Shown here piece after piece: positions 28,113 to 64,000 of a DNA stretch of 64,000 bases. The notes beneath the pieces are model-generated. The model saw only the letters and a program-made list of their open reading frames with translations, was not told the DNA's origin and ran no database searches. Source of the DNA: Brachyhypopomus gauderio (lineage: Eukaryota; Chordata; Actinopteri; Gymnotiformes; Hypopomidae); the NCBI RefSeq assembly GCF_052324685.1, contig NC_135211.1:52014182-52078181 (forward strand), written 5' to 3'. Numbering within the stretch: the stretch's first letter is position 1; every line of letters begins with the position of its first letter. Made by a program: the position numbers and the translations under genes.

Positions 28113-28285
28113 TGGCTGGGTTCTGGCTGGCCGTTATTCATGAGTGAAGAAAGACCAGAATGTGGGTTATTCGTGACCACACCAGAACATGTGGACCTTT
28201 TTGTGTCAAGACTGTCAAATGCTTCCCATGTCAGAGGTCAAGAATATCTGGACATGTTCTGAATCACAGAGCAAGGCTAAACATA

Positions 28286-28358
28286 GCCTGGATAGCTCAG
28301 TCGGTAGAGCATCAGACTTTTAATCTGAGGGTCCAGGGTTCAAGTCCCTGTTCAGGCG
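28286..28358 (+). tRNA. tRNA-Lys-TTT: tRNA-Lys (UUU), unit 1
   Basis: 73 nt. Acceptor GCCTGGA/TTCAGGC with discriminator G; D arm GCTC/GAGC; anticodon stem TCAGA/TCTGA with loop CTTTTAA (anticodon TTT); T arm CAGGG-TTCAAGT-CCCTG, which contains the B box. Matches the usual vertebrate tRNA-Lys-UUU. There is no T4 directly after the gene; the first lies at 28414-28417. Confidence 0.98.
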
Positions 28359-28830
28359 TTGAACTTTACATGACCGTCAGCTCTTGAGCACCGTTCACTC
28401 ATCGTCAGGCAGGCTTTTGGATTAAGCTGAACTTCCAGCTTTACGTCTGCCTACCTGTGACTTCCTTGTCATTAATTATTTTGTCTATGTCCTTGTTAAT
28501 GATGTCAAAAAAAACAACAATTAAAGCCACTCAGCCTTTCCTTTCTCTCTCTCTCTATGTGACATCACAATAGATTTTCTCAAAAAGCAATTCAAATTGT
28601 TCTAACCATTGGTGGGACCAACCCGTGGCCTTTTACCATCCACGTGTCCAAAATGCAGTACGCATGCCAATGTTGTTAACAGACATACGTGTTGGTAGCT
28701 CTACATGTCCAACTGGTACAGTGTGAGGTTTCCTCTTTGGTGGACCTTAAAGAGTTGAAAAAGCCACAACCGAACTGGTATCTTTGTCAACGTCCTTGTT
28801 TCTGGATCTATGCTGCATGTGCGTCAGAAT

Positions 28831-28917
28831 CCTTCGGTAGCTCAGATGGTAGAGCGGAGGACTGTAGAGGTTAAAGCAGCAATCCTTAGGCCACCGGTTC
28901 AAATCCGGTTCGAAGGA
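28831..28917 (+). tRNA. tRNA-Tyr-GTA: tRNA-Tyr (GUA) with 14-nt intron, unit 1
   Basis: 87 nt. Acceptor CCTTCGG/TCGAAGG, discriminator A; anticodon GTA at 28864-28866; intron AGGTTAAAGCAGCA at 28868-28881, after the base 3' of the anticodon as in all eukaryotic tRNA-Tyr; T arm CCGGT-TCAAATC-CGGTT. Mature length 73. A T7 Pol III terminator follows within 10 bp. Confidence 0.98.
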
Positions 28918-28979
28918 AGCTTCTTTTTTTCCAGGATATTACTGCCTTTAATGTCATGATGAGCAAAAAGTTTTCTGTT

Positions 28980-29051
28980 TTCCCTGACCGGGAATCGAAC
29001 CCGGGCCGCGGCGGTGAGAGCGCCGAATCCTAGCCACTAGACCATCAGGGA
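28980..29051 (-). tRNA. tRNA-Glu-CTC: tRNA-Glu (CUC), unit 1
   Basis: 72 nt on the minus strand: acceptor TCCCTGA/TCAGGGA, discriminator A; D arm GTCT/GGAT; anticodon stem CGGCG/CGCCG with loop CTCTCAC (anticodon CTC); T arm CCGGG-TTCGATT-CCCGG. It converges on tRNA-Tyr; a T5 terminator (plus-strand AAAAA) lies just downstream. Confidence 0.98.
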
Positions 29052-29255
29052 CAGCGATGGAATGCTAATGGATGAAGGCCTTTACATGAGTTCTGGCTGG
29101 CCGTTATTCATGAGTGAAGAAAGACCAGAATGTGGGTTATTCGTGACCACACCAGAACATGTGGACCTTTTTGTGTCAAGACTGTCAAATGCTTCCCATG
29201 TCAGAGGTCAAGAATATCTGGACATGTTCTGAATCACAGAGCAAGGTTAAACGTA

Positions 29256-29328
29256 GCCTGGATAGCTCAGTCGGTAGAGCATCAGACTTTTAATCTGAGG
29301 GTCCAGGGTTCAAGTCCCTGTTCAGGCG
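29256..29328 (+). tRNA. tRNA-Lys-TTT: tRNA-Lys (UUU), unit 2
   Basis: Body as unit 1. Unit markers: TTAAACG before the gene and CATTGTC after it, shared with units 13 and 18. Confidence 0.97.
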
Positions 29329-29800
29329 TTGAACTTTACATGACCGTCAGCTCTTGAGCACCGTTCACTCATTGTCAGGCAGGCTTTTGGATTAAGCTGA
29401 ACTTCCAGCTTTACGTCTGCCTACCTGTGACTTCCTTGTCATTAATTATTTTGTCTATGTCCTTGTTAATGATGACAAAAAAAACAACAATTAAAGCCAC
29501 TCAGCCTTTCCTTTCTCTCTCTCTCTATGTGACATCACAATAGATTTTCTCAAAAAGCAATTCAAATTGTTCTAACCATTGGTGGGACCAACCCGTGGCC
29601 TTTTACCATCCACGTGTCCAAAATGCAGTACGCATGCCAATGTTGTTAACAGACATACGTGTTGGTAGCTCTACATGTCCAACTGGTACAGTGTGAGGTT
29701 TCCTCTTTGGTGGACCTTAAAGAGTTGAAAAAGCCACAACCGAACTGGTATCTTTGTCAACGTCCTTGTTTCTGGATCTATGCTGCATGTGCGTCAGAAT

Positions 29801-29887
29801 CCTTCGGTAGCTCAGATGGTAGAGCGGAGGACTGTAGAGGTTAAAGCAGCAATCCTTAGGCCACCGGTTCAAATCCGGTTCGAAGGA
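29801..29887 (+). tRNA. tRNA-Tyr-GTA: tRNA-Tyr (GUA), unit 2
   Basis: Body as unit 1; T8 terminator. Confidence 0.97.
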
Positions 29888-29950
29888 AGCTTCTTTTTTT
29901 TCCAGGATATTACTGCCCTTAATGTCATGATGAGCAAAAAGTTTTCTGTT

Positions 29951-30022
29951 TTCCCTGACCGGGAATCGAACCCGGGCCGCGGCAGTGAGAGCGCCGAATC
30001 CTAGCCACTAGACCATCAGGGA
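29951..30022 (-). tRNA. tRNA-Glu-CTC: tRNA-Glu (CUC), unit 2
   Basis: Variant C39>T, giving a G31-U39 wobble pair next to the anticodon loop. Confidence 0.96.
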
Positions 30023-30226
30023 CAGCGATGTTATGCTAATGGATGAAGGCTTTTACATGAGTTCTGGCTGGCCGTTATTCATGAGTGAAGAAAGACCAGA
30101 ATGTGGGTTATTCGTGACCACACCAGAACATGTGGACCTTTTTGTGTCAAGACTGTCAAATGCTTCCCATGTCAGAGGTCAAGAATATCTGGACATGTTC
30201 TGAATCACAGAGCAAGGCTAAACGTA

Positions 30227-30299
30227 GCCTGGATAGCTCAGTCGGTAGAGCATCAGACTTTTAATCTGAGGGTCCAGGGTTCAAGTCCCTGTTCAGGCG
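30227..30299 (+). tRNA. tRNA-Lys-TTT: tRNA-Lys (UUU), unit 3
   Basis: Body as unit 1; upstream marker CTAAACG. Confidence 0.97.
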
Positions 30300-30771
30300 T
30301 TGAACTTTACATGACCGTCAGCTCTTGAGCACCGTTCACTCATCGTCAGGCAGGCTTTTGGATTAAGCTGAACTTCCAGCTTTACGTCTGCCTACCTGTG
30401 ACTTCCTTGTCATTAATTATTTTGTCTATGTCCTTGTTAATGATGACAAAAAAAACAACAATTAAAGCCACTCAGCCTTTCCTTTCTCTCTCTCTCTATG
30501 TGACATCACAATAGATTTTCTCAAAAAGCAATTCAAATTGTTCTAACCATTGGTGGGACCAACCCGTGGCCTTTTACCATCCACGTGTCCAAAATGCAGT
30601 ACGCATGCCAATGTTGTTAACAGACATACGTGTTGGTAGCTCTACATGTCCAACTGGTACAGTGTGAGGTTTCCTCTTTGGTGGACCTTAAAGAGTTGAA
30701 AAAGCCACAACCGAACTGGTATCTTTGTCAACGTCCTTGTTTCTGGATCTATGCTGCATGTGCGTCAGAAT

Positions 30772-30858
30772 CCTTCGGTAGCTCAGATGGTAGAGCGGAG
30801 GACTGTAGAGGTTAAAGCAGCAATCCTTAGGCCACCGGTTCAAATCCGGTTCGAAGGA
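30772..30858 (+). tRNA. tRNA-Tyr-GTA: tRNA-Tyr (GUA), unit 3
   Basis: Body as unit 1; T7 terminator, flank AAGTTTC instead of AAGCTTC. Confidence 0.97.
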
Positions 30859-30920
30859 AGTTTCTTTTTTTCCAGGATATTACTGCCTTTAATGTCATGA
30901 TGAGCAAAAAGTTTTCTGTT

Positions 30921-30992
30921 TTCCCTGACCGGGAATCGAACCCGGGCCGCGGCGGTGAGAGCGCCGAATCCTAGCCACTAGACCATCAGGGA
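30921..30992 (-). tRNA. tRNA-Glu-CTC: tRNA-Glu (CUC), unit 3
   Basis: Body as unit 1. Confidence 0.97.
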
Positions 30993-31196
30993 CAGCGATG
31001 GAATGCTAATGGATGAAGGCCTTTACATGAGTTCTGGCTGGCCGTTATTCATGAGTGAAGAAAGACCAGAATGTGGGTTATTCGTGACCACACCAGAACA
31101 TGTGGACCTTTTTGTGTCAAGACTGTCAAATGCTTCCCATGTCAGAGGTCAAGAATATCTGGACATGTTCTAAATCACAGAGCAAGGTTAAATGTA

Positions 31197-31269
31197 GCCT
31201 GGATAGCTCAGTCGGTAGAGCATCAGACTTTTAATCTGAGGGTCCAGGGTTCAAGTCCCTGTTCAGGCG
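31197..31269 (+). tRNA. tRNA-Lys-TTT: tRNA-Lys (UUU), unit 4
   Basis: Body as unit 1; upstream markers CTAAATCAC and TTAAATG, shared with units 5, 21 and 25. Confidence 0.97.
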
Positions 31270-31741
31270 TTGAACTTTACATGACCGTCAGCTCTTGAGC
31301 ACCGTTCACTCATCGTCAGGCAGGCTTTTGGATTAAGCTGAACTTCCAGCTTTACGTCTGCCTACCTGTGACTTCCTTGTCATTAATTATTTTGTCTATG
31401 TCCTTGTTAATGATGACAAAAAAAACAACAATTAAAGCCACTCAGCCTTTCCTTTCTCTCTCTCTCTATGTGACATCACAATAGATTTTCTCAAAAAGCA
31501 ATTCAAATTGTTCTAACCATTGGTGGGACCAACCCGTGGCCTTTTACCATCCACGTGTCCAAAATGCAGTACGCATGCCAATGTTGTTAACAGACATACG
31601 TGTTGGTAGCTCTACATGTCCAACTGGTACAGTGTGAGGTTTCCTCTTTGGTGGACCTTAAAGAGTTGAAAAAGCCACAACCGAACTGGTATCTTTGTCA
31701 ACGTCCTTGTTTCTGGATCTATGCTGCATGTGCGTCAGAAT

Positions 31742-31828
31742 CCTTCGGTAGCTCAGATGGTAGAGCGGAGGACTGTAGAGGTTAAAGCAGCAATCCTTAG
31801 GCCACCGGTTCAAATCCGGTTCGAAGGA
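31742..31828 (+). tRNA. tRNA-Tyr-GTA: tRNA-Tyr (GUA), unit 4
   Basis: Body as unit 1; T7 terminator. Confidence 0.97.
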
Positions 31829-31890
31829 AGCTTCTTTTTTTCCAGGATATTACTGCCTTTAATGTCATGATGAGCAAAAAGTTTTCTGTT

Positions 31891-31962
31891 TTCCCTGACC
31901 GGGAATCGAACCCGGGCCGCGGCGGTGAGAGCGCCGAATCCTAGCCACTAGACCATCAGGGA
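31891..31962 (-). tRNA. tRNA-Glu-CTC: tRNA-Glu (CUC), unit 4
   Basis: Body as unit 1. Confidence 0.97.
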
Positions 31963-32166
31963 CAGCGATGGAATGCTAATGGATGAAGGCCTTTACATGA
32001 GTTCTGGCTGGCCGTTATTCATGAGTGAAGAAAGACCAGAATGTGGGTTATTCGTGACCACACCAGAACATGTGGACCTTTTTGTGTCAAGACTGTCAAA
32101 TGCTTCCCATGTCAGAGGTCAAGAATATCTGGACATGTTCTAAATCACAGGGCAAGGTTAAATGTA

Positions 32167-32239
32167 GCCTGGATAGCTCAGTCGGTAGAGCATCAGACTT
32201 TTAATCTGAGGGTCCAGGGTTCAAGTCCCTGTTCAGGCG
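32167..32239 (+). tRNA. tRNA-Lys-TTT: tRNA-Lys (UUU), unit 5
   Basis: Body as unit 1; CTAAATCAC marker plus a private CAGGGCAAGG upstream. Confidence 0.97.
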
Positions 32240-32711
32240 TTGAACTTTACATGACCGTCAGCTCTTGAGCACCGTTCACTCATCGTCAGGCAGGCTTTTG
32301 GATTAAGCTGAACTTCCAGCTTTACGTCTGCCTACCTGTGACTTCCTTGTCATTAATTATTTTGTCTATGTCCTTGTTAATGATGACAAAAAAAACAACA
32401 ATTAAAGCCACTCAGCCTTTCCTTTCTCTCTCTCTCTATGTGACATCACAATAGATTTTCTCAAAAAGCAATTCAAATTGTTCTAACCATTGGTGGGACC
32501 AACCCGTGGCCTTTTACCATCCACGTGTCCAAAATGCAGTACGCATGCCAATGTTGTTAACAGACATACGTGTTGGTAGCTCTACATGTCCAACTGGTAC
32601 AGTGTGAGGTTTCCTCTTTGGTGGACCTTAAAGAGTTGAAAAAGCCACAACCGAACTGGTATCTTTGTCAACGTCCTTGTTTCTGGATCTATGCTGCATG
32701 TGCATCAGAAT

Positions 32712-32798
32712 CCTTCGGTAGCTCAGATGGTAGAGCGGAGGACTGTAGAGGTTAAAGCAGCAATCCTTAGGCCACCGGTTCAAATCCGGTTCGAAGGA
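32712..32798 (+). tRNA. tRNA-Tyr-GTA: tRNA-Tyr (GUA), unit 5
   Basis: Body as unit 1; flank TGTGCATCAG (also in units 21 and 25); T8 terminator. Confidence 0.97.
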
Positions 32799-32861
32799 AG
32801 CTTCTTTTTTTTCCAGGATATTACTGCCCTTAATGTCATGATGAGCAAAAAGTTTTCTGTT

Positions 32862-32933
32862 TTCCCTGACCGGGAATCGAACCCGGGCCGCGGCGGTGAG
32901 AGCGCCGAATCCTAGCCACTAGACCATCAGGGA
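32862..32933 (-). tRNA. tRNA-Glu-CTC: tRNA-Glu (CUC), unit 5
   Basis: Body as unit 1. Confidence 0.97.
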
Positions 32934-33137
32934 CAGCGATGTTATGCTAATGGATGAAGGCTTTTACATGAGTTCTGGCTGGCCGTTATTCATGAGTGAA
33001 GAAAGACCAGAATGTGGGTTATTCGTGACCACACCAGAACATATGGACCTTTTTGTGTCAAGACTGTCAAATGCTTCCCATGTCAGAGGTCAAGAATATC
33101 TGGACATGTTCTGAATCACAGAGCAAGGCTAAACGTA

Positions 33138-33210
33138 GCCTGGATAGCTCAGTCGGTAGAGCATCAGACTTTTAATCTGAGGGTCCAGGGTTCAAGTCCC
33201 TGTTCAGGCG
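33138..33210 (+). tRNA. tRNA-Lys-TTT: tRNA-Lys (UUU), unit 6
   Basis: Body as unit 1; private upstream change CATATGG. Confidence 0.97.
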
Positions 33211-33682
33211 TTGAACTTTACATGACCGTCAGCTCTTGAGCACCGTTCACTCATCGTCAGGCAGGCTTTTGGATTAAGCTGAACTTCCAGCTTTACGTCT
33301 GCCTACCTGTGACTTCCTTGTCATTAATTATTTTGTCTATGTCCTTGTTAATGATGACAAAAAAAACAACAATTAAAGCCACTCAGCCTTTCCTTTCTCT
33401 CTCTCTCTATGTGACATCACAATAGATTTTCTCAAAAAGCAATTCAAATTGTTCTAACCATTGGTGGGACCAACCCGTGGCCTTTTACCATCCACGTGTC
33501 CAAAATGCAGTACGCATGCCAATGTTGTTAACAGACATACGTGTTGGTAGCTCTACATGTCCAACTGGTACAGTGTGAGGTTTCCTCTTTGGTGGACCTT
33601 AAAGAGTTGAAAAAGCCACAACCGAACTGGTATCTTTGTCAACGTCCTTGTTTCTGGATCTATGCTGCATGTGCGTCAGAAT

Positions 33683-33769
33683 CCTTCGGTAGCTCAGATG
33701 GTAGAGTGGAGGACTGTAGAGGTTAAAGCAGCAATCCTTAGGCCACCGGTTCAAATCCGGTTCGAAGGA
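33683..33769 (+). tRNA. tRNA-Tyr-GTA: tRNA-Tyr (GUA), unit 6
   Basis: Variant C25>T in the D stem (G10-U25 wobble), shared with units 8 and 9; T8 terminator. Confidence 0.96.
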
Positions 33770-33832
33770 AGCTTCTTTTTTTTCCAGGATATTACTGCCC
33801 TTAATGTCATGATGAGCAAAAAGTTTTCTGTT

Positions 33833-33904
33833 TTCCCTGACCGGGAATCGAACCCGGGCCGCGGCGGTGAGAGCGCCGAATCCTAGCCACTAGACCATCA
33901 GGGA
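33833..33904 (-). tRNA. tRNA-Glu-CTC: tRNA-Glu (CUC), unit 6
   Basis: Body as unit 1. Confidence 0.97.
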
Positions 33905-34108
33905 CAGCGATGTTATGCTAATGGATGAAGGCTTTTACATGAGTTCTGGCTGGCCGTTATTCATGAGTGAAGAAAGACCAGAATGTGGGTTATTCGTGAC
34001 CACACCAGAACATGTGGACCTTTTTGTGTCAAGACTGTCAAATGCTTCCCATGTCAGAGGTCAAGAATATCTGGACATGTTCTGAATCACAGAGCAAGGG
34101 TAAATGTA

Positions 34109-34181
34109 ACCTGGATAGCTCAGTCGGTAGAGCATCAGACTTTTAATCTGAGGGTCCAGGGTTCAAGTCCCTGTTCAGGCG
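34109..34181 (+). tRNA. tRNA-Lys-TTT: tRNA-Lys (UUU), unit 7, acceptor variant
   Basis: First base G>A, leaving an A1-C72 mismatch at the acceptor end, which may reduce 5' processing or charging. Upstream marker GGGTAAATG, shared with units 9 and 10. Confidence 0.92.
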
Positions 34182-34653
34182 TTGAACTTTACATGACCGT
34201 CAGCTCTTGAGCACCGTTCACTCATCGTCAGGCAGGCTTTTGGATTAAGCTGAACTTCCAGCTTTACGTCTGCCTACCTGTGACTTCCTTGTCATTAATT
34301 ATTTTGTCTATGTCCTTGTTAATGATGACAAAAAAAACAACAATTAAAGCCACTCAGCCTTTCCTTTCTCTCTCTCTCTATGTGACATCACAATAGATTT
34401 TCTCAAAAAGCAATTCAAATTGTTCTAACCATTGGTGGGACCAACCCGTGGCCTTTTACCATCCACGTGTCCAAAATGCAGTACGCATGCCAATGTTGTT
34501 AACAGACATACGTGTTGGTAGCTCTACATGTCCAACTGGTACAGTGTGAGGTTTCCTCTTTGGTGGACCTTAAAGAGTTGAAAAAGCCACAACCGAACTG
34601 GTATCTTTGTCAACGTCCTTGTTTCTGGATCTATGCTGCATGTGCGTCAGAAT

Positions 34654-34740
34654 CCTTCGGTAGCTCAGATGGTAGAGCGGAGGACTGTAGAGGTTAAAGC
34701 AGCAATCCTTAGGCCACCGGTTCAAATCCGGTTCGAAGGA
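34654..34740 (+). tRNA. tRNA-Tyr-GTA: tRNA-Tyr (GUA), unit 7
   Basis: Body as unit 1; T7 terminator. Confidence 0.97.
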
Positions 34741-34802
34741 AGCTTCTTTTTTTCCAGGATATTACTGCCTTTAATGTCATGATGAGCAAAAAGTTTTCTG
34801 TT

Positions 34803-34874
34803 TTCCCTGACCGGGAATCGAACCCGGGCCGCGGCGGTGAGAGCGCCGAATCCTAGCCACTAGACCATCAGGGA
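34803..34874 (-). tRNA. tRNA-Glu-CTC: tRNA-Glu (CUC), unit 7
   Basis: Body as unit 1. Confidence 0.97.
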
Positions 34875-35078
34875 CAGCGATGTTATGCTAATGGATGAAG
34901 GCTTTTACATGAGTTCTGGCTGGCCGTTATTCATGAGTGAAGAAAGACCAGAATGTGGGTTATTCGTGACCACACCAGAACATGTGGACCTTTTTGTGTC
35001 AAGACTGTCAAATGCTTCCCATGTCAGAGGTCAAGAATATCTGGACATGTTCTGAATCACAGAGCAAGGCTAAACGTA

Positions 35079-35151
35079 GCCTGGATAGCTCAGTCGGTAG
35101 AGCATCAGACTTTTAATCTGAGGGTCCAGGGTTCAAGTCCCTGTTCAGGCG
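35079..35151 (+). tRNA. tRNA-Lys-TTT: tRNA-Lys (UUU), unit 8
   Basis: Body as unit 1; upstream CTAAACG. Confidence 0.97.
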
Positions 35152-35623
35152 TTGAACTTTACATGACCGTCAGCTCTTGAGCACCGTTCACTCATCGTCA
35201 GGCAGGCTTTTGGATTAAGCTGAACTTCCAGCTTTACGTCTGCCTACCTGTGACTTCCTTGTCATTAATTATTTTGTCTATGTCCTTGTTAATGATGACA
35301 AAAAAAACAACAATTAAAGCCACTCAGCCTTTCCTTTCTCTCTCTCTCTATGTGACATCACAATAGATTTTCTCAAAAAGCAATTCAAATTGTTCTAACC
35401 ATTGGTGGGACCAACCCGTGGCCTTTTACCATCCACGTGTCCAAAATGCAGTACGCATGCCAATGTTGTTAACAGACATACGTGTTGGTAGCTCTACATG
35501 TCCAACTGGTACAGTGTGAGGTTTCCTCTTTGGTGGACCTTAAAGAGTTGAAAAAGCCACAACCGAACTGGTATCTTTGTCAACGTCCTTGTTTCTGGAT
35601 CTATGCTGCATGTGCGTCAGAAT

Positions 35624-35710
35624 CCTTCGGTAGCTCAGATGGTAGAGTGGAGGACTGTAGAGGTTAAAGCAGCAATCCTTAGGCCACCGGTTCAAATCCG
35701 GTTCGAAGGA
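35624..35710 (+). tRNA. tRNA-Tyr-GTA: tRNA-Tyr (GUA), unit 8
   Basis: Variant C25>T; T8 terminator. Confidence 0.96.
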
Positions 35711-35773
35711 AGCTTCTTTTTTTTCCAGGATATTACTGCCCTTAATGTCATGATGAGCAAAAAGTTTTCTGTT

Positions 35774-35845
35774 TTCCCTGACCGGGAATCGAACCCGGGC
35801 CGCGGCGGTGAGAGCGCCGAATCCTAGCCACTAGACCATCAGGGA
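35774..35845 (-). tRNA. tRNA-Glu-CTC: tRNA-Glu (CUC), unit 8
   Basis: Body as unit 1. Confidence 0.97.
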
Positions 35846-36049
35846 CAGCGATGTTATGCTAATGGATGAAGGCTTTTACATGAGTTCTGGCTGGCCGTTA
35901 TTCATGAGTGAAGAAAGACCAGAATGTGGGTTATTCGTGACCACACCAGAACATGTGGACCTTTTTGTGTCAAGACTGTCAAATGCTTCCCATGTCAGAG
36001 GTCAAGAATATCTGGACATGTTCTGAATCACAGAGCAAGGGTAAATGTA

Positions 36050-36681: not shown

Positions 36682-36744
36682 AGCTTCTTTTTTTTCCAGG
36701 ATATTACTGCCCTTAATGTCATGATGAGCAAAAAGTTTTCTGTT

Positions 36745-48463: not shown

Positions 48464-48665
48464 CAGCTATGTTATGCTAATGAATGAAGGCTTTTTCATG
48501 AGTTCTGGCTGGCCGTTATTCATGAGTGAAGAAAGACCAGAATGTGGGTTATTCGTGACCACACCAGAACATGTGGACCTTTTTGTCAAGACTGTCAAAT
48601 GCTTCCCATGTCAGAGGTCAAGAATATCTGGACATGTTCTGAATCACAGAGCAAGGCTAAACGTA

Positions 48666-48738
48666 GCCTGGATAGCTCAGTCGGTAGAGCATCAGACTTT
48701 TAATCTGAGGGTCCAGGGTTCAAGTCCCTGTTCAGGCG
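48666..48738 (+). tRNA. tRNA-Lys-TTT: tRNA-Lys (UUU), unit 22
   Basis: Body as unit 1. The unit is 969 bp because TTTTGTGTCAAG upstream has lost GT. Confidence 0.97.
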
Positions 48739-49210
48739 TTGAACTTTACATGACCGTCAGCTCTTGAGCACCGTTCAGTCATCGTCAGGCAGGCTATTGG
48801 ATTAGGCTGAACTTCCAGCTTTACGTCTGCCTACCTGTGACTTCCTTGTCATTAATTATTTTGTCTATGTCCTTGTTAATGATGACAAAAAAAACAACAA
48901 TTAAAGCCACTCAGCCTTTCCTTTCTCTCTCTCTCTATGTGACATCACAATAGATTTTCTCAAAAAGCAATTCAAATTGTTCTAACCATTGGTGGGACCA
49001 ACCCGTGGCCTTTTACCATCCACGTGTCCAAAATGCAGTACACATGCCAATGTTGTTAACAGACATACGTGTTGGTAGCTCTACATGTCCAACTGGTACA
49101 GTGTGAGGTTTCCTCTTTGGTGGACCTTAAAGAGTTGAAAAAGCCACAACCGAACTGGTATCTTTGTCAACGTCCTTGTTTCTGGATCTATGCTGCATGT
49201 GCGTCAGAAT

Positions 49211-49297
49211 CCTTCGGTAGCTCAGATGGTAGAGCGGAGGACTGTAGAGGTTAAAGCAGCAATCCTTAGGCCACCGGTTCAAATCCGGTTCGAAGGA
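49211..49297 (+). tRNA. tRNA-Tyr-GTA: tRNA-Tyr (GUA), unit 22
   Basis: Body as unit 1; T8 terminator. Several private spacer changes before it. Confidence 0.97.
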
Positions 49298-49360
49298 AGC
49301 TTCTTTTTTTTCCAGGATATTACTGCCCTTAATGTCAAGATGAGCAAAAAGTTTTCTGTT

Positions 49361-49432
49361 TTCCCTGACCGGGAATCGAACCCGGGCCGCGGCGGTGAGA
49401 GCGCCGAATCCTAGCCACTAGACCATCAGGGA
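49361..49432 (-). tRNA. tRNA-Glu-CTC: tRNA-Glu (CUC), unit 22
   Basis: Body as unit 1. Confidence 0.97.
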
Positions 49433-49636
49433 CAGCGATGGAATGCTAATGAATGAAGGCTTTTACATGAGTTCTGGCTGGCCGTTATTCATGAGTGAAG
49501 AAAGACCAGAATGTGGGTTATTCGTGACCACACCAGAACATGTGGACCTTTTTGTGTCAAGACTGTCAAATGCTTCCCATGTCAGAGGTTAAGAATATCT
49601 GGACATGTTCTGAATCACAGAGCAAGGTTAAACGTA

Positions 49637-55664: not shown

Positions 55665-56797
55665 ATATGCTTCCATTACCACACATCATTAATAAACATG
55701 GTATTAGTTATCATCAATATGCAGATGACACTCAACTTTATATCTCGCTAGAACCTAAAGCCCTAAAATCAATTTGCTCACTGTTTGACTGCATAGATGA
55801 TATACAGACATGGATGTCTGACAATTTTCTGCAGTTAAATAAACAGAAGACAGAGGTTCTTGTTCTTGGCAGTGATTCACAAAGGAATGATGTCCAGACT
55901 TATTTAAATCAAATGAATCTGAAAGCCAGACAATGTGTTAAGAACCTGGGCGTCACCTTTGATAATGAGCTCAGCTTCAAATCACACATCATGACTACAT
56001 GCAAGACAGCTTACTTTCATCTTCGAAACATCGCTAAGGTCCGAGATATGCTCTCTCCTGCTGACAGTGAAAAACTTGTCCATGCATTTATCACATCAAG
56101 GCTAGATTATTGTAACGCTGTTCTATCTGCTCTTCCAAAGAGCTCTATTTCGCACCTACAGCGAGTTCAGAACGCGGCTGCAAGGGTTCTGACCCGCAGG
56201 AGAAAGAGAGATCATATTACACCTGCACTCCACTCACTGCACTGGTTACCTGTCAGCTTTAGAATAGATTTTAAGGTTCTAGTCATGGTTTTTAAATGTC
56301 TTCATGGTCTTGCCCCTCTTTACCTAAGTGAAATGATGGTTAGATATGTTCCAGTCAGGTCTCTCAGGTCTTCAAACAGTAATCTACTGGTGATTCCTAA
56401 AAGCCGATTAAAGATTGGCGAGGGTGCTTTTAGCCACTATGGCCCAAAGCTCTGGAATTCTCTTCCTGAAGAGCTCAGAGGCATTTCATCCCTGCATAGT
56501 TTTAAGAGCAGTCTCAAAACATTCCTGTTTAGATCCGCTTTTAGTTAAAACTATTAAGATAGAGTTTCTTATCTTATTTACTTTACTTTTTATTATCTTA
56601 CTTACTTCACTTTTTACTTTTTATGTTATTTTAATATTTTTATCTTTAATTTCTTTTAAAATTTTCTTCTGTCTTTTTGTCTTTGTCTTATCTCCTTTTA
56701 ATGTTTCTTTTATTTATACTGTAAAGCACTTTGAGTTACATGTATGTATGAAAGGTGCTATACAAATAAAGATTATTATTATTATTATTATTATTAT
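55665..56797 (+). mobile_element. 5'-truncated L2-type LINE inserted between tRNA-Lys and tRNA-Tyr (unit 29)
   Basis: 1133 bp inserted after GTCTAT in the Lys-Tyr spacer. It carries the C-terminal part of an L2-clade reverse transcriptase, an A/T-rich 3' UTR with the typical AAAGCACTTTGAGT...GGTGCTATACAAATAAAG end, and an (ATT)n tail. Only a TAT is shared at the junctions, so no clear TSD is seen. A second copy lies 5015 bp downstream at the equivalent position. Confidence 0.93.
55667..56548 (+). pseudogene. L2-type LINE ORF2, C-terminal part
   Basis: 293 codons open to the stop. Contains the RT catalytic motif QYADDTQLYIS near the start, LNKQKTEVLVLG and HLQRVQNAAARVLTRRRKRD, and ends YGPKLWNSLPEELRG...FLFRSAFS, the usual C-terminus of the L2 group. 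The endonuclease and the first half of RT are missing (5' truncation), so it cannot move by itself. Confidence 0.9.
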
Positions 56798-57139
56798 GTC
56801 CTTGTTAATGATGACAAAAAAAACAACAATTAAAGCCACTCAGCCTTTCCTTTCTCTCTCTCTCTATGTGACATCACAATAGATTTTCTCAAAAAGCAAT
56901 TCAAATTGTTCTAACCATTGGTGGGACCAACCCGTGGCCTTTTACCATCCACGTGTCCAAAATGCAGTACGCATGCCAATGTTGTTAACAGACATACGTG
57001 TTGGTAGCTCTACATGTCCAACTGGTACAGTGTGAGGTTTCCTCTTTGGTGGACCTTAAAGAGTTGAAAAAGCCACAACCGAACTGGTATCTTTGTCAAC
57101 GTCCTTGTTTCTGGATCTATGCTGCATGTGCGTCAGAAT

Positions 57140-57226
57140 CCTTCGGTAGCTCAGATGGTAGAGCGGAGGACTGTAGAGGTTAAAGCAGCAATCCTTAGGC
57201 CACCGGTTCAAATCCGGTTCGAAGGA
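57140..57226 (+). tRNA. tRNA-Tyr-GTA: tRNA-Tyr (GUA), unit 29
   Basis: Body as unit 1; T7 terminator. Confidence 0.97.
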
Positions 57227-57288
57227 AGCTTCTTTTTTTCCAGGATATTACTGCCTTTAATGTCATGATGGGCAAAAAGTTTTCTGTT

Positions 57289-57360
57289 TTCCCTGACCGG
57301 GAATCGAACCCGGGCCGCGGCGGTGAGAGCGCCGAATCCTAGCCACTAGACCATCAGGGA
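57289..57360 (-). tRNA. tRNA-Glu-CTC: tRNA-Glu (CUC), unit 29
   Basis: Body as unit 1; 3' flank ATGGGCAAAAAG instead of ATGAGCAAAAAG, shared with unit 33. Confidence 0.97.
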
Positions 57361-57564
57361 CAGCGATGTTATGCTAATGAATGAAGGCTTTTACATGAGT
57401 TCTGGCTGGCCGTTATTCATGAGTGAAGAAAGACCAGAATGTGGGTTATTCGTGACCACACCAGAACATGTGGACCTTTTTGTGTCAAGACTGTCAAATG
57501 CTTCCCATGTCAGAGGTCAAGAATATCTGGACATGTTCTGAATCACAGAGCAAGGCTAAACGTA

Positions 57565-57637
57565 GCCTGGATAGCTCAGTCGGTAGAGCATCAGACTTTT
57601 AATCTGAGGGTCCAGGGTTCAAGTCCCTGTTCAGGCG
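57565..57637 (+). tRNA. tRNA-Lys-TTT: tRNA-Lys (UUU), unit 30
   Basis: Body as unit 1; downstream markers CAGACTTTTGG, TTTACATCTG and CACCAATT, shared with units 34 and 35. Confidence 0.97.
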
Positions 57638-58109
57638 TTGAACTTTACATGACCGTCAGCTCTTGAGCACCGTTCACTCATCGTCAGGCAGACTTTTGGA
57701 TTAAGCTGAACTTCCAGCTTTACATCTGCCTACCTGTGACTTCCTTGTCATTAATTATTTTGTCTATGTCCTTGTTAATGATGAAAAAAAAAACACCAAT
57801 TAAAGCCACTCAGCCTTTCCTTTCTCTCTCTCTCTATGTGACATCACAATAGATTTTCTCAAAAAGCAATTCAAATTGTTCTAACCATTGGTGGGACCAA
57901 CCCGTGGCCTTTTACCATCCACGTGTCCAAAATGCAGTACGCATGCCAATGTTGTTAACAGACATACGTGTTGGTAGCTCTACATGTCCAACTGGTACAG
58001 TGTGAGGTTTCCTCTTTGGTGGACCTTAAAGAGTTGAAAAAGCCACAACCGAACTGGTATCTTTGTCAACGTCCTTGTTTCTGGATCTATGCTGCATGTG
58101 CGTCAGAAT

Positions 58110-58196
58110 CCTTCGGTAGCTCAGATGGTAGAGCGGAGGACTGTAGAGGTTAAAGCAGCAATCCTTAGGCCACCGGTTCAAATCCGGTTCGAAGGA
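58110..58196 (+). tRNA. tRNA-Tyr-GTA: tRNA-Tyr (GUA), unit 30
   Basis: Body as unit 1; T7 terminator. Confidence 0.97.
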
Positions 58197-58258
58197 AGCT
58201 TCTTTTTTTCCAGGATATTACTGCCTTTAATGTCATGATGAGCAAAAAGTTTTCTGTT

Positions 58259-58330
58259 TTCCCTGACCGGGAATCGAACCCGGGCCGCGGCGGTGAGAGC
58301 GCCGAATCCTAGCCACTAGACCATCAGGGA
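58259..58330 (-). tRNA. tRNA-Glu-CTC: tRNA-Glu (CUC), unit 30
   Basis: Body as unit 1. Confidence 0.97.
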
Positions 58331-58534
58331 CAGCGATGTTATGCTAATGGATGAAGGCTTTTACATGAGTTCTGGCTGGCCGTTATTCATGAGTGAAGAA
58401 AGACCAGAATGTGGGTTATTCGTGACCACACCAGAACATGTGGACCTTTTTGTGTCAAGACTGTCAAATGCTTCCCATGTCAGAGGTCAAGAATATCTGG
58501 ACATGTTCTGAATCACAGAGCAAGGCTAAACGTA

Positions 58535-58607
58535 GCCTGGATAGCTCAGTCGGTAGAGCATCAGACTTTTAATCTGAGGGTCCAGGGTTCAAGTCCCTGT
58601 TCAGGCG
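58535..58607 (+). tRNA. tRNA-Lys-TTT: tRNA-Lys (UUU), unit 31
   Basis: Body as unit 1. Confidence 0.97.
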
Positions 58608-59079
58608 TTGAACTTTACATGACCGTCAGCTCTTGAGCACCGTTCACTCATCGTCAGGCAGGCTTTTGGATTAAGCTGAACTTCCAGCTTTACGTCTGCC
58701 TACCTGTGACTTCCTTGTCATTAATTATTTTGTCTATGTCCTTGTTAATGATGACAAAAAAAACAACAATTAAAGCCACTCAGCCTTTCCTTTCTCTCTC
58801 TCTCTATGTGACATCACAATAGATTTTCTCAAAAAGCAATTCAAATTGTTCTAACCATTGGTGGGACCAACCCGTGGCCTTTTACCATCCACGTGTCCAA
58901 AATGCAGTACGCATGCCAATGTTGTTAACAGACATACGTGTTGGTAGCTCTACATGTCCAACTGGTACAGTGTGAGGTTTCCTCTTTGGTGGACCTTAAA
59001 GAGTTGAAAAAGCCACAACCGAACTGGTATCTTTGTCAACGTCCTTGTTTCTGGATCTATGCTGCATGTGCGTCAGAAT

Positions 59080-59166
59080 CCTTCGGTAGCTCAGATGGTA
59101 GAGCGGAGGACTGTAGAGGTTAAAGCAGCAATCCTTAGGCCACCGGTTCAAATCCGGTTCGAAGGA
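59080..59166 (+). tRNA. tRNA-Tyr-GTA: tRNA-Tyr (GUA), unit 31
   Basis: Body as unit 1; T8 terminator. Confidence 0.97.
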
Positions 59167-59229
59167 AGCTTCTTTTTTTTCCAGGATATTACTGCCCTTA
59201 ATGTCATGATGAGCAAAAAGTTTTCTGTT

Positions 59230-59301
59230 TTCCCTGACCGGGAATCGAACCCGGGCCGCGGCGGTGAGAGCGCCGAATCCTAGCCACTAGACCATCAGGG
59301 A
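59230..59301 (-). tRNA. tRNA-Glu-CTC: tRNA-Glu (CUC), unit 31
   Basis: Body as unit 1. Confidence 0.97.
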
Positions 59302-59505
59302 CAGCGATGTTATGCTAATGGATGAAGGCTTTTACATGAGTTCTGGCTGGCCGTTATTCATGAGTGAAGAAAGACCAGAATGTGGGTTATTCGTGACCAC
59401 ACCAGAACATGTGGACCTTTTTGTGTCAAGACTGTCAAATGCTTCCCATGTCAGAGGTCAAGAATATCTGGACATGTTCTGAATCACAGAGCAAGGCTAA
59501 ATGTA

Positions 59506-59578
59506 GCCTGGATAGCTCAGTCGGTAGAGCATCAGACTTTTAATCTGAGGGTCCAGGGTTCAAGTCCCTGTTCAGGCG
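59506..59578 (+). tRNA. tRNA-Lys-TTT: tRNA-Lys (UUU), unit 32
   Basis: Body as unit 1; upstream CTAAATG (private combination). Confidence 0.97.
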
Positions 59579-60050
59579 TTGAACTTTACATGACCGTCAG
59601 CTCTTGAGCACCGTTCACTCATCGTCAGGCAGGCTTTTGGATTAAGCTGAACTTCCAGCTTTACGTCTGCCTACCTGTGACTTCCTTGTCATTAATTATT
59701 TTGTCTATGTCCTTGTTAATGATGACAAAAAAAACAACAATTAAAGCCACTCAGCCTTTCCTTTCTCTCTCTCTCTATGTGACATCACAATAGATTTTCT
59801 CAAAAAGCAATTCAAATTGTTCTAACCATTGGTGGGACCAACCCGTGGCCTTTTACCATCCACGTGTCCAAAATGCAGTACGCATGCCAATGTTGTTAAC
59901 AGACATACGTGTTGGTAGCTCTACATGTCCAACTGGTACAGTGTGAGGTTTCCTCTTTGGTGGACCTTAAAGAGTTGAAAAAGCCACAACCGAACTGGTA
60001 TCTTTGTCAACGTCCTTGTTTCTGGATCTATGCTGCATGTGCGTCAGAAT

Positions 60051-60137
60051 CCTTCGGTAGCTCAGATGGTAGAGCGGAGGACTGTAGAGGTTAAAGCAGC
60101 AATCCTTAGGCCACCGGTTCAAATCCGGTTCGAAGGA
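60051..60137 (+). tRNA. tRNA-Tyr-GTA: tRNA-Tyr (GUA), unit 32
   Basis: Body as unit 1; T8 terminator. Confidence 0.97.
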
Positions 60138-60200
60138 AGCTTCTTTTTTTTCCAGGATATTACTGCCCTTAATGTCATGATGAGCAAAAAGTTTTCTGTT

Positions 60201-60272
60201 TTCCCTGACCGGGAATCGAACCCGGGCCGCGGCGGTGAGAGCGCCGAATCCTAGCCACTAGACCATCAGGGA
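60201..60272 (-). tRNA. tRNA-Glu-CTC: tRNA-Glu (CUC), unit 32
   Basis: Body as unit 1. Confidence 0.97.
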
Positions 60273-60476
60273 CAGCGATGTTATGCTAATGGATGAAGGC
60301 TTTTACATGAGTTCTGGCTGGCCGTTATTCATGAGTGAAGAAAGACCAGAATGTGGGTTATTCGTGACCACACCAGAACATGTGGACCTTTTTGTGTCAA
60401 GACTGTCAAATGCTTCCCATGTCAGAGGTCAAGAATATCTGGACATGTTCTGAATCACAGAGCAAGGCTAAACGTA

Positions 60477-60549
60477 GCCTGGATAGCTCAGTCGGTAGAG
60501 CATCAGACTTTTAATCTGAGGGTCCAGGGTTCAAGTCCCTGTTCAGGCG
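60477..60549 (+). tRNA. tRNA-Lys-TTT: tRNA-Lys (UUU), unit 33
   Basis: Body as unit 1; second LINE-bearing unit. Confidence 0.97.
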
Positions 60550-60679
60550 TTGAACTTTACATGACCGTCAGCTCTTGAGCACCGTTCACTCATCGTCAGG
60601 CAGGCTTTTGGATTAAGCTGAACTTCCAGCTTTACGTCTGCCTACCTGTGACTTCCTTGTCATTAATTATTTTGTCTAT

Positions 60680-61812
60680 ATATGCTTCCATTACCACACA
60701 TCATTAATAAACATGGTATTAGTTATCATCAATATGCAGATGACACTCAACTTTATATCTCGCTAGAACCTAAAGCCCTAAAATCAATTTGCTCACTGTT
60801 TGACTGCATAGATGATATACAGACATGGATGTCTGACAATTTTCTGCAGTTAAATAAACAGAAGACAGAGGTTCTTGTTCTTGGCAGTGATTCACAAAGG
60901 AATGATGTCCAGACTTATTTAAATCAAATGAATCTGAAAGCCAGACAATGTGTTAAGAACCTGGGCGTCACCTTTGATAATGAGCTCAGCTTCAAATCAC
61001 ACATCATGACTACATGCAAGACAGCTTACTTTCATCTTCGAAACATCGCTAAGGTCCGAGATATGCTCTCTCCTGCTGACAGTGAAAAACTTGTCCATGC
61101 ATTTATCACATCAAGGCTAGATTATTGTAACGCTGTTCTATCTGCTCTTCCAAAGAGCTCTATTTCGCACCTACAGCGAGTTCAGAACGCGGCTGCAAGG
61201 GTTCTGACCCGCAGGAGAAAGAGAGATCATATTACACCTGCACTCCACTCACTGCACTGGTTACCTGTCAGCTTTAGAATAGATTTTAAGGTTCTAGTCA
61301 TGGTTTTTAAATGTCTTCATGGTCTTGCCCCTCTTTACCTAAGTGAAATGATGGTTAGATATGTTCCAGTCAGGTCTCTCAGGTCTTCAAACAGTAATCT
61401 ACTGGTGATTCCTAAAAGCCGATTAAAGATTGGCGAGGGTGCTTTTAGCCACTATGGCCCAAAGCTCTGGAATTCTCTTCCTGAAGAGCTCAGAGGCATT
61501 TCATCCCTGCATAGTTTTAAGAGCAGTCTCAAAACATTCCTGTTTAGATCCGCTTTTAGTTAAAACTATTAAGATAGAGTTTCTTATCTTATTTACTTTA
61601 CTTTTTATTATCTTACTTACTTCACTTTTTACTTTTTATGTTATTTTAATATTTTTATCTTTAATTTCTTTTAAAATTTTCTTCTGTCTTTTTGTCTTTG
61701 TCTTATCTCCTTTTAATGTTTCTTTTATTTATACTGTAAAGCACTTTGAGTTACATGTATGTATGAAAGGTGCTATACAAATAAAGATTATTATTATTAT
61801 TATTATTATTAT
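60680..61812 (+). mobile_element. second copy of the L2-type LINE (unit 33)
   Basis: Same 1133-bp insert, same junctions and same spacer position as at 55665. The coding part translates identically. This indicates duplication of the whole tRNA unit, not a second retrotransposition. Confidence 0.93.
60682..61563 (+). pseudogene. L2-type LINE ORF2, C-terminal part (second copy)
   Basis: Same 293-codon C-terminal frame as the copy at 55667, with no amino-acid difference noticed. Confidence 0.9.
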
Positions 61813-62154
61813 GTCCTTGTTAATGATGACAAAAAAAACAACAATTAAAGCCACTCAGCCTTTCCTTTCTCTCTCTCTCTATGTGACATCACAATAGATT
61901 TTCTCAAAAAGCAATTCAAATTGTTCTAACCATTGGTGGGACCAACCCGTGGCCTTTTACCATCCACGTGTCCAAAATGCAGTACGCATGCCAATGTTGT
62001 TAACAGACATACGTGTTGGTAGCTCTACATGTCCAACTGGTACAGTGTGAGGTTTCCTCTTTGGTGGACCTTAAAGAGTTGAAAAAGCCACAACCGAACT
62101 GGTATCTTTGTCAACGTCCTTGTTTCTGGATCTATGCTGCATGTGCGTCAGAAT

Positions 62155-62241
62155 CCTTCGGTAGCTCAGATGGTAGAGCGGAGGACTGTAGAGGTTAAAG
62201 CAGCAATCCTTAGGCCACCGGTTCAAATCCGGTTCGAAGGA
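62155..62241 (+). tRNA. tRNA-Tyr-GTA: tRNA-Tyr (GUA), unit 33
   Basis: Body as unit 1; T7 terminator. Confidence 0.97.
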
Positions 62242-62303
62242 AGCTTCTTTTTTTCCAGGATATTACTGCCTTTAATGTCATGATGGGCAAAAAGTTTTCT
62301 GTT

Positions 62304-62375
62304 TTCCCTGACCGGGAATCGAACCCGGGCCGCGGCGGTGAGAGCGCCGAATCCTAGCCACTAGACCATCAGGGA
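62304..62375 (-). tRNA. tRNA-Glu-CTC: tRNA-Glu (CUC), unit 33
   Basis: Body as unit 1; flank ATGTCATGC differs by one base from unit 29 (ATGTTATGC). Confidence 0.97.
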
Positions 62376-62579
62376 CAGCGATGTCATGCTAATGAATGAA
62401 GGCTTTTACATGAGTTCTGGCTGGCCGTTATTCATGAGTGAAGAAAGACCAGAATGTGGGTTATTCGTGACCACACCAGAACATGTGGACCTTTTTGTGT
62501 CAAGACTGTCAAATGCTTCCCATGTCAGAGGTCAAGAATATCTGGACATGTTCTGAATCACAGAGCAAGGCTAAACGTA

Positions 62580-62652
62580 GCCTGGATAGCTCAGTCGGTA
62601 GAGCATCAGACTTTTAATCTGAGGGTCCAGGGTTCAAGTCCCTGTTCAGGCG
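62580..62652 (+). tRNA. tRNA-Lys-TTT: tRNA-Lys (UUU), unit 34
   Basis: Body as unit 1; same downstream markers as unit 30. Confidence 0.97.
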
Positions 62653-63124
62653 TTGAACTTTACATGACCGTCAGCTCTTGAGCACCGTTCACTCATCGTC
62701 AGGCAGACTTTTGGATTAAGCTGAACTTCCAGCTTTACATCTGCCTACCTGTGACTTCCTTGTCATTAATTATTTTGTCTATGTCCTTGTTAATGATGAA
62801 AAAAAAAACACCAATTAAAGCCACTCAGCCTTTCCTTTCTCTCTCTCTCTATGTGACATCACAATAGATTTTCTCAAAAAGCAATTCAAATTGTTCTAAC
62901 CATTGGTGGGACCAACCCGTGGCCTTTTACCATCCACGTGTCCAAAATGCAGTACGCATGCCAATGTTGTTAACAGACATACGTGTTGGTAGCTCTACAT
63001 GTCCAACTGGTACAGTGTGAGGTTTCCTCTTTGGTGGACCTTAAAGAGTTGAAAAAGCCACAACCGAACTGGTATCTTTGTCAACGTCCTTGTTTCTGGA
63101 TCTATGCTGCATGTGTGTCAGAAT

Positions 63125-63211
63125 CCTTCGGTAGCTCAGATGGTAGAGCGGAGGACTGTAGAGGTTAAAGCAGCAATCCTTAGGCCACCGGTTCAAATCC
63201 GGTTCGAAGGA
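63125..63211 (+). tRNA. tRNA-Tyr-GTA: tRNA-Tyr (GUA), unit 34
   Basis: Body as unit 1; flank TGTGTGTCAG is private; T7 terminator. Confidence 0.97.
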
Positions 63212-63273
63212 AGCTTCTTTTTTTCCAGGATATTACTGCCTTTAATGTCATGATGAGCAAAAACTTTTCTGTT

Positions 63274-63345
63274 TTCCCTGACCGGGAATCGAACCCGGGC
63301 CGCGGCGGTGAGAGCGCCGAATCCTAGCCACTAGACCATCAGGGA
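63274..63345 (-). tRNA. tRNA-Glu-CTC: tRNA-Glu (CUC), unit 34
   Basis: Body as unit 1; 3' flank AAAAACTTTTC instead of AAAAAGTTTTC. Confidence 0.97.
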
Positions 63346-63549
63346 CAGCGATGTTATGCTAATGAATGAAGGCTTTTACATGAGTTCTGGCTGGCCGTTA
63401 TTCATGAGTGAAGAAAGACCAGAATGTGGGTTATTCGTGACCACACCAGAACATGTGGACCTTTTTGTGTCAAGACTGTCAAATGCTTCCCATGTCAGAG
63501 GTCAAGAATATCTGGACATGTTCTGAATCACAGAGCAAGGCTAAACGTA

Positions 63550-63622
63550 GCCTGGATAGCTCAGTCGGTAGAGCATCAGACTTTTAATCTGAGGGTCCAG
63601 GGTTCAAGTCCCTGTTCAGGCG
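63550..63622 (+). tRNA. tRNA-Lys-TTT: tRNA-Lys (UUU), unit 35
   Basis: Body as unit 1. The window ends before the tRNA-Tyr of this unit. Confidence 0.97.
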
Positions 63623-64000
63623 TTGAACTTTACATGACCGTCAGCTCTTGAGCACCGTTCACTCATCGTCAGGCAGACTTTTGGATTAAGCTGAACTTCC
63701 AGCTTTACATCTGCCTACCTGTGACTTCCTTGTCATTAATTATTTTGTCTATGTCCTTGTTAATGATGAAAAAAAAAACACCAATTAAAGCCACTCAGCC
63801 TTTCCTTTCTCTCTCTCTCTATGTGACATCACAATAGATTTTCTCAAAAAGCAATTCAAATTGTTCTAACCATTGGTGGGACCAACCCGTGGCCTTTTAC
63901 CATCCACGTGTCCAAAATGCAGTACGCATGCCAATGTTGTTAACAGACATACGTGTTGGTAGCTCTACATGTCCAACTGGTACAGTGTGAGGTTTCCTCT

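Follow-up and report, generated by a model that had tools for sequence, protein, structure and literature searches.

The window, a 64,000-nt stretch of Brachyhypopomus gauderio DNA, is best interpreted as containing part of one very long tandem array, in which a 970-bp RNA polymerase III cassette carries tRNA-Lys-UUU, tRNA-Tyr-GUA and tRNA-Glu-CUC genes in equal dose. By analogy with the repetitive tRNA loci of the zebrafish early embryo, we assign a probability of about one half to the array supplying tRNAs under developmental restriction, probably maternally. The question at stake is whether the big tRNA arrays of vertebrates function in provisioning the egg or are silent satellites.

ARAGORN and Rfam (RF00005) searches each identified 103 tRNA genes at positions 28286-63622, comprising 35 Lys-TTT genes and 34 intron-bearing Tyr genes on the forward strand and 34 Glu-CTC genes on the reverse strand, and all 103 reached the Rfam gathering score. 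A scan with a 20-base spacer anchor (allowing up to 3 mismatches) located 35 unit starts, from position 28120 on. The three analyses hence agree with the earlier note on this DNA, which had described 35 units, each with three Pol III genes in +,+,- order, and 103 tRNA genes. The unit length of 970-971 bp that it gave applies to 31 of the 34 anchor-to-anchor intervals; one interval spans 969 bp, and two reach 2103 bp because they hold a 1,133-bp insert. These two units, the only ones in the window with such an insert, carry identical copies of a LINE whose 5'-truncated reverse-transcriptase frame corresponds to the C-terminal part of RVT_1. With the insert set aside, the 34 full units in the window present a mean pairwise identity of 99.33%. 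Units follow one another head to tail with their tRNA genes intact, and the locus thus has the defining make-up of a tandem tRNA array (Table 1).

Table 1. Coordinates of the array and of selected features within the window.
Feature	Position	Strand	Description	Basis
Tandem array	28120..64000	+	35 unit starts, 34 units complete and one truncated; extends past the window	anchor scan, genome count
Truncated unit piece	28061..28113	+	unit positions 377-427, at the left array edge before the first full unit	blastn of left flank against unit: 94.3% over 53 bp
tRNA-Lys-UUU, unit 1	28286..28358	+	35 copies in window; A and B boxes present; nearest TTTT lies 56 nt past the gene	
tRNA-Tyr-GUA, unit 1	28831..28917	+	34 copies in window; 14-nt intron; T-run begins 6 nt downstream; array-type isodecoder	
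tRNA-Glu-CUC, unit 1	28980..29051	-	34 window copies; convergent with Tyr; T5 lies 10 nt past the gene	
Unit 22	48502..49470	+	969-bp unit; spacer ahead of Lys lacks two bases	start summed from anchor intervals; deletion from unit alignment table
LINE insert, unit 29	55665..56797	+	1,133-bp 5'-truncated non-LTR retrotransposon in the Lys-Tyr spacer; ATT-repeat tail; ends uncertain by a few bases	
LINE insert, unit 33	60680..61812	+	identical copy, four units on, at the same unit position	

The suggestion that the array leaves the window was borne out by the presence of 93 unit starts on chromosome C1 and of 477 occurrences of the unit marker genome-wide, all in the forward orientation, so the 36 kb visible here fall far short of the extent of the array; these counts give a floor for its size. 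Among the anchor matches listed in contig order, C1 is directly followed by C71, a separate 1.03-Mb contig that opens with units repeating the last C1 units in the same order. From this arrangement we infer that C71 continues the C1 array, the predicted overlap pairing C1 units 84-92 with C71 units 2-10.

All three genes of the cassette contain A and B boxes, and T-runs lie close downstream of Tyr and Glu, the sole downstream T-run noted for Lys being a T4 located 56 nt away. Together with the cloverleaf folds, these features are those of Pol III tRNA genes. The identity of the middle gene was the object of conflicting program calls. ARAGORN reported it as Leu-TAG in its bacterial setting and as Asp-GTC with a 14-nt intron in its eukaryotic intron setting, and in the Rfam alignment the anticodon loop begins with C-U-G-U. 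Two dispersed Tyr genes, which match the array gene on both sides of the intron but contain differing introns of 14 and 13 nt, fix the intron after position 37 and thereby define the anticodon as GUA, ruling out both ARAGORN assignments and upholding the initial Tyr-GUA label. The intron itself, which the earlier note marked for comparison, is not distinctive, as both fully read dispersed Tyr genes also bear introns.

The arrangement of unit variants along the array points to a history of exchange. The 92 units compared present 54 distinct haplotypes arranged in blocks, and multi-unit blocks recur along the array. These recurring blocks, and the copying of one LINE insertion along the array, indicate that units spread by unequal exchange. 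No trend between similarity and distance was detected among units in the window, with mean differences of 5.4-7.4 at separations of 1-25 units. Variable columns in the window amounted to 5/232 in genes and 35/739 in spacers. A larger alignment, of 127 units, leaves out unit 93, and its variable columns were counted after removal of A01, C01 and u37, which lie at contig ends or carry deletions; 124 units remained. In these, 19/145 columns of the Tyr exons and Glu were variable, as were 66/738 spacer columns (p 0.12), and the proportions at non-CpG sites alone were 11/133 in genes and 51/708 in spacers. Genes are hence no better conserved than spacers between the 124 units, in keeping with the earlier view that spacers are homogenised along with genes. 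The 99.33% identity and the repeated blocks are those of concerted evolution acting on whole units, spacers included. In 21 of the 124 Glu copies, the anticodon stem contains a C30-A40 mismatch.

Variation across the 124 units is concentrated at CpG dinucleotides. Transitions were observed at 22/60 CpG positions, versus 22/380 C/G positions outside CpG (odds ratio 9.4, p ~5e-10), and 9/26 CpG sites vary within the Tyr and Glu genes. This excess implies that the array is probably methylated in the germ line. The CpG observed/expected ratio of the unit (0.60) equals that of the left flank, and is lower (0.47) in the spacers alone.

A search with a pattern for the 5' half of Tyr returned 439 matches, of which, among those listed, seven lie outside the array on C1-C70. 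All seven are of another Tyr type in their 5' half, and none is of the array type. Three of them were read, revealing two intact genes and one broken relic. The two intact genes differ from array Tyr at 7 of 73 positions; four of these changes affect stem positions without loss of standard pairing, among them a double change from G49-C65 to A49-U65, and all stem pairs of array Tyr are preserved across the seven differences. Array Tyr is recognisable by G7 and A16 as well as by the A49-U65 pair. These compensated changes may be older than the amplification. Within the array, Tyr is unchanged in 112/124 units. The array isodecoder of Tyr, the one gene of the three covered by this comparison, is thus distinct from the dispersed genes, as in a dual maternal and somatic tRNA system. 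Judged from these sequences, the distinct array Tyr suggests a separate tRNA supply, perhaps an egg-specific one.

Among published systems, those closest to the array include the large repetitive tRNA loci of zebrafish, on the long arm of chromosome 4 and in other clusters, and both the Lys-UUU/Tyr-GUA/Glu-CUC composition and the parallel with teleost tRNA arrays proposed in the earlier note hold. In zebrafish, isodecoders from repetitive regions occur in the egg and early embryo and scattered ones late (PMC11417395), large tRNA clusters are methylated in embryos (PMC11574265), and a maternal role of clustered tRNA genes was put forward as a hypothesis in 2024 (PMC11075544). Frequent neighbour pairs in Danio are K-N, K-S and R-T, nearly all of them parallel (PMC2888827), whereas here a single uniform Lys-Tyr-Glu unit carries Glu in reverse. 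In Xenopus, 5S genes form a large and a small family that differ in expression, and tRNA genes reportedly follow a comparable dual oocyte/somatic scheme, for which a 1989 paper with tyrosine tRNA genes in its title is cited (PMC3565088), a precedent in favor of a restricted supply here. The Arabidopsis SYY (Ser-Tyr-Tyr) cassettes are likewise tandem, and their clustered Tyr genes are unlike the dispersed genes in both body and intron, being silenced in most tissues and active in root cap cells (PMC12308677), but they belong to a plant, comprise 54 clustered Tyr genes versus hundreds here and involve another partner tRNA. Entamoeba also keeps tRNA genes in tandem arrays (PMC2888827), although it is a protist. 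No description of a Lys-Tyr-Glu cassette was recognised in the literature on fish and vertebrate tRNA arrays and on the Xenopus repeat, as judged by titles and abstract openings and with subscription literature mostly outside the search.

In the favored scenario, unequal exchange between sister chromatids or homologues would keep the cassette uniform and the array would act as a bulk source of Lys, Tyr and Glu tRNAs under developmental restriction, above all in the oocyte, with somatic cells served by the small dispersed Tyr gene set. The array would accordingly be silent in most tissues and transcribed in the oocyte, where its tRNAs would be used. Speaking for this scenario are the size and single orientation of the array, its own Tyr type, the Pol III elements of its genes, the near-uniform Tyr sequence and the CpG transitions, which fit methylation. 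Several observations run against such a restricted supply: genes are not more constrained than spacers, Glu copies carry stem mismatches, the CpG observed/expected ratio of the unit matches that of the flank, and zebrafish copy number is no guide to tRNA abundance (PMC11574265). An inert, satellite-like array is the chief rival. In this case, a functional cassette would have been amplified by unequal exchange and would drift, mostly methylated and silent, without a selected role. The absence of constraint on the genes, the strong CpG decay that reaches into them, the Glu mismatch copies, the copying of blocks and LINE along the array, and the poor prediction of zebrafish tRNA levels by copy number (PMC11574265) all fit this explanation, which we nonetheless regard as somewhat unlikely. 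Every gene in the window still attains the Rfam gathering score and Tyr is nearly uniform, features that could stem from a young array age alone, and array Tyr has kept its stem pairs through seven changes.

The other role ascribed to the tRNA genes themselves is a constitutive dosage device, boosting Lys, Tyr and Glu tRNAs in all cells. Three intact genes per unit, in equal dose in the window, and hundreds of units would suit it, but the germ-line methylation implied by CpG decay, the weak relation between copy number and abundance in zebrafish (PMC11574265) and the existence of a separate dispersed Tyr set make it improbable; restricted supply is favored over always-on dosage because of the array-type Tyr isodecoder and the CpG decay. 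Of the roles offered in the earlier note, the dosage device and the satellite retain some probability, and a boundary role found no support. A boundary or heterochromatin element, acting via TFIIIC or CTCF, would share its general plan with the human 1q23.3 tRNA repeat, a VNTR of 9-43 units per allele with 98% identity between units and mixed gene orientation (PMC4041453), and each unit here offers three B boxes. The human unit, however, spans 7.3 kb, with five genes and CTCF binding, whereas the 970-bp unit has three genes and far more copies. It yielded no CTCF-like site, where 200 shuffled versions averaged 1.25, in a weak test that matched a core consensus, allowing 2 mismatches at most, and used no position matrix. 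Hundreds of units would also be unnecessary for this role, which we deem very unlikely. A false expansion of a small cluster during assembly is hardly credible: the C1 array end does reappear at the start of C71 and contig-end units bear indels, but the haplotypes are numerous and block-ordered, and complete units from farther into C71 show 4-12 differences from any C1 unit.

A more specific version of the maternal supply reading, which we advance tentatively and with less confidence than the general one, likens this single tRNA locus to the oocyte 5S rDNA. The fixed Lys:Tyr:Glu cassette, in hundreds of copies, would load the egg with structurally distinct array-type tRNAs at 1:1:1 and would then be shut down by CpG methylation, so that the soma would depend on a handful of dispersed genes. 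If true, the tRNAs of the egg could be matched to the codons that a few abundant oocyte proteins use. Since seven positions separate array Tyr from the two dispersed genes, ordinary tRNA sequencing could read the output of the array directly.

Within the window, ARAGORN and Rfam agree on 103 tRNA genes, comprising 35 Lys-TTT genes and 34 copies of an intron-bearing gene on the forward strand, and 34 Glu-CTC genes on the reverse strand. A 20-base spacer marker present once per unit (the anchor) occurs 35 times from 28120 onward, with 31 of the 34 anchor-to-anchor intervals spanning 970-971 bp, one 969 bp and two 2103 bp. The 34 full units share a mean pairwise identity of 99.33%, and the alignment of the 35 units in the window presents 40 variable columns, 5 of 232 in genes and 35 of 739 in spacers. 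Both long units carry the same 1,133-bp sequence at the same site. The presence in this insert of the C-terminal part of a reverse transcriptase and of an ATT-repeat tail identifies it as a 5'-truncated LINE. A second reverse-transcriptase fragment was detected near the left edge of the array.

Positions of the array and of neighbouring features (window coordinates unless a contig is named)
Feature	Position	Strand	Remarks
RasGEF-type gene, exons	483-15816		RasGEF_N, RA and RasGEF above cut-offs; PDZ below cut-off
Minisatellite	4867-5762		36-bp unit, 24.9 copies, 98% match
LTR element	6286-13516		single open frame
Repeated stretch flanking LTR element	6286 and 13148		
Reverse-transcriptase fragment (RVT_1)	27051-27446	-	
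Partial array unit			53 bp, at left edge, ahead of first full unit
tRNA genes of array	28286-63622	+,+,-	
Tyr-Lys fusion relic	C1:51717340-51717460		about 300 kb left of array

The intron-bearing middle gene was labelled by prediction programs as Leu-TAG or as Asp-GTC with a 14-nt intron. In the Rfam alignment, its anticodon loop opens with C-U-G-U, followed by 17 bases versus 3 in the model. Two dispersed genes, located outside the array, share the sequence around the anticodon on either side of introns that differ; the intron must therefore follow position 37, and the anticodon is GUA. This intron placement rules out both Leu-TAG and Asp-GTC, and the middle gene is assigned to tRNA-Tyr-GUA. 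A and B boxes were found in all three genes. In the unit consensus, a T7 run (T8 in some units) starts 6 nt past Tyr and a T5 run 10 nt past Glu, and nothing beyond a T4, at 56 nt, was found downstream of Lys. Tyr and Glu are convergent, with a gap of 62 bp in the first unit.

The extent of the array was analyzed in the 796.5-Mb assembly (840 contigs) and in the 200-kb stretch following the window; counts outside the window are floors, because parts of the sequence there read N. The chromosome contig (C1), on which the window occupies 52014182-52078181, holds 93 anchors in all, continuing past the window, and no units were found after anchor 93 in the readable part of the 200-kb continuation. 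Genome-wide, the anchor occurs 477 times with up to 2 mismatches, always in forward orientation; among the 100 matches listed, in contig order, 93 are on C1 and the next 7 on a separate contig, C71 (1,025,562 bp), whose first base falls inside a unit. Sampling of C71 at 12 places returned array sequence at five (0-20, 300, 365, 400 and 500 kb) and non-array sequence at four (600, 800, 900 and 1020 kb), the other three being unreadable. Together, anchors and samples indicate that the array spans about 94 kb of C1 and persists at 503 kb of C71.

Compared in order, C71 units 2-10 and C1 units 84-92 differ by a mean of 1.0 change per unit and five of the nine are identical, versus at least 3.5 differences per unit at each of 26 alternative offsets. 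Sequence comparison thus makes it most likely that C71 continues the C1 array; the simplest interpretation is that an overlap of about ten units went unrecognised in the assembly. The assembly appears to split the array, the units at the end of C1 and the start of C71 being seemingly identical DNA; units at both places have indels. If the unlisted anchors are on C71, the distinct units counted in the array would number at least about 465 and, at three genes each, its tRNA genes about 1,400.

Over 911 columns, 92 units comprise 54 haplotypes. Their longest repeated haplotype run is 5 units and seven triplets are repeated, compared with maxima of 4 and 2 after shuffling unit order 1,000 times; units 12-15 recur as units 17-20, and units 78-82 as units 83-87. 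The LINE insert is present in C1 units 29, 33, 39 and 50 (three identical copies, one with 3 differences). Two C71 units carry it too, without any difference from the three matching copies; a single insertion was thus duplicated along the array. No decay of similarity with distance between units was detected within the window. Full C71 units sampled at 300 kb or beyond present 4-12 differences from any C1 unit (one unit with a deletion falls outside this range), which suggests that, on a scale of hundreds of kilobases, exchange is local. Taken together, these patterns are those usual for unequal exchange.

Array structure by itself is compatible with a functional source of tRNA as well as with a passive satellite. 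The comparison with Tyr genes outside the array bears on this choice. The Tyr 5'-half pattern returned 439 genomic matches and, among those listed, seven on C1-C70 are not part of the array (one on C1, two on C5, three on C7 and one on C15). All seven present A7 and T16, versus G7 and A16 in the listed array copies. Three of the seven (C1, C5 and C7) were examined in sequence, and those on C5 and C7 are intact genes. The array Tyr differs from these two by seven changes (A7G, T16A, T47C, G49A, T51C, G57A and C65T), four of them in stems; all pairs remain standard, with G49-C65 replaced by A49-U65 in a coupled change. The Tyr-Lys fusion relic joins a dispersed-type Tyr 5' half, with an array-like intron end, to Lys from about the D arm; the sequence examined stops inside the relic. 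This relic may have survived from an ancestral version of the cassette. For Glu, the pattern returned 426 matches in one orientation only, and every listed match is in the C1 array or on C71; since any Glu genes elsewhere may be unreadable, Tyr is the sole gene for which array and dispersed forms are shown to differ.

Variation was analyzed in 124 units (C1 units 1-92 without unit 37, and 33 of the 35 C71 units). Tyr is unchanged in 112 and Glu in 85. Variable columns amount to 19/145 in Tyr exons and Glu versus 66/738 spacer columns (odds ratio 1.5, p 0.12), and non-CpG variable sites to 11/133 in Tyr and Glu versus 51/708 in spacers, which gives no indication of selection on individual copies. 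In 21 units, the anticodon stem of Glu carries a C30-A40 mismatch, as the sole change in 19 and together with a further change in 2; these units occur from unit 65 onward on C1 and from the unit designated A02 onward on C71. Transitions affect 22/60 CpG positions versus 22/380 other C/G positions (odds ratio 9.4, p about 5e-10), and within Tyr and Glu variation reaches 9 of 26 CpG sites. Excess CpG transitions are usually caused by germ-line methylation. The CpG observed/expected ratio (0.60 in the unit, 0.60 in the left flank, 0.47 in spacers) is less informative than the transitions.

These data, together with precedents in other systems, suggest that the array is probably a restricted, and probably maternal, tRNA supply. 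Its Tyr isodecoder differs from dispersed Tyr with the fold kept, and the CpG signature, presumably left by germ-line methylation, suits a locus that is quiet in many cells better than one that is active at all times. In zebrafish, highly repetitive regions are reported to be the source of egg and early-embryo isodecoders, and scattered genes that of late ones (PMC11417395); near-complete methylation of the clusters on chromosomes 4, 8 and 3 is reported at 3 and 5.7 hpf (PMC11574265). Xenopus tRNA genes reportedly form a dual system (PMC3565088). In Arabidopsis, the Tyr genes of the Ser-Tyr-Tyr cluster have distinct bodies and introns, and the cluster is described as silent in most tissues and active in root-cap cells (PMC12308677). 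Against a restricted supply count the lack of constraint within the array and the report that, in zebrafish, gene copy number is no predictor of tRNA levels (PMC11574265).

Large teleost tRNA clusters are already known, and the present array belongs with them: clustered genes reportedly account for 65% of tRNA genes and pseudogenes in zebrafish and 87% in stickleback (PMC2888827). In human, the 1q23.3 repeat is reported to comprise 9-43 copies of a 7.3-kb unit with five tRNA genes and CTCF binding (PMC4041453). No description of a Lys-Tyr-Glu cassette was recognised in the titles and abstract openings of the literature searched on fish and vertebrate tRNA arrays and the Xenopus repeat. What sets the array apart is a short, uniform unit of three genes, together with its size and a Tyr type of its own.

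The left part of the window contains a RasGEF-type gene whose best solved relatives are Rap GEF 4, and which we take from its domain order to be RapGEF2/6-like. This gene and the transposons would both fit a teleost genome. An LTR element sits between exons of this gene; its integrase domains precede the reverse transcriptase, an order that is presumably Gmr1-like. A minisatellite was also identified in this region.
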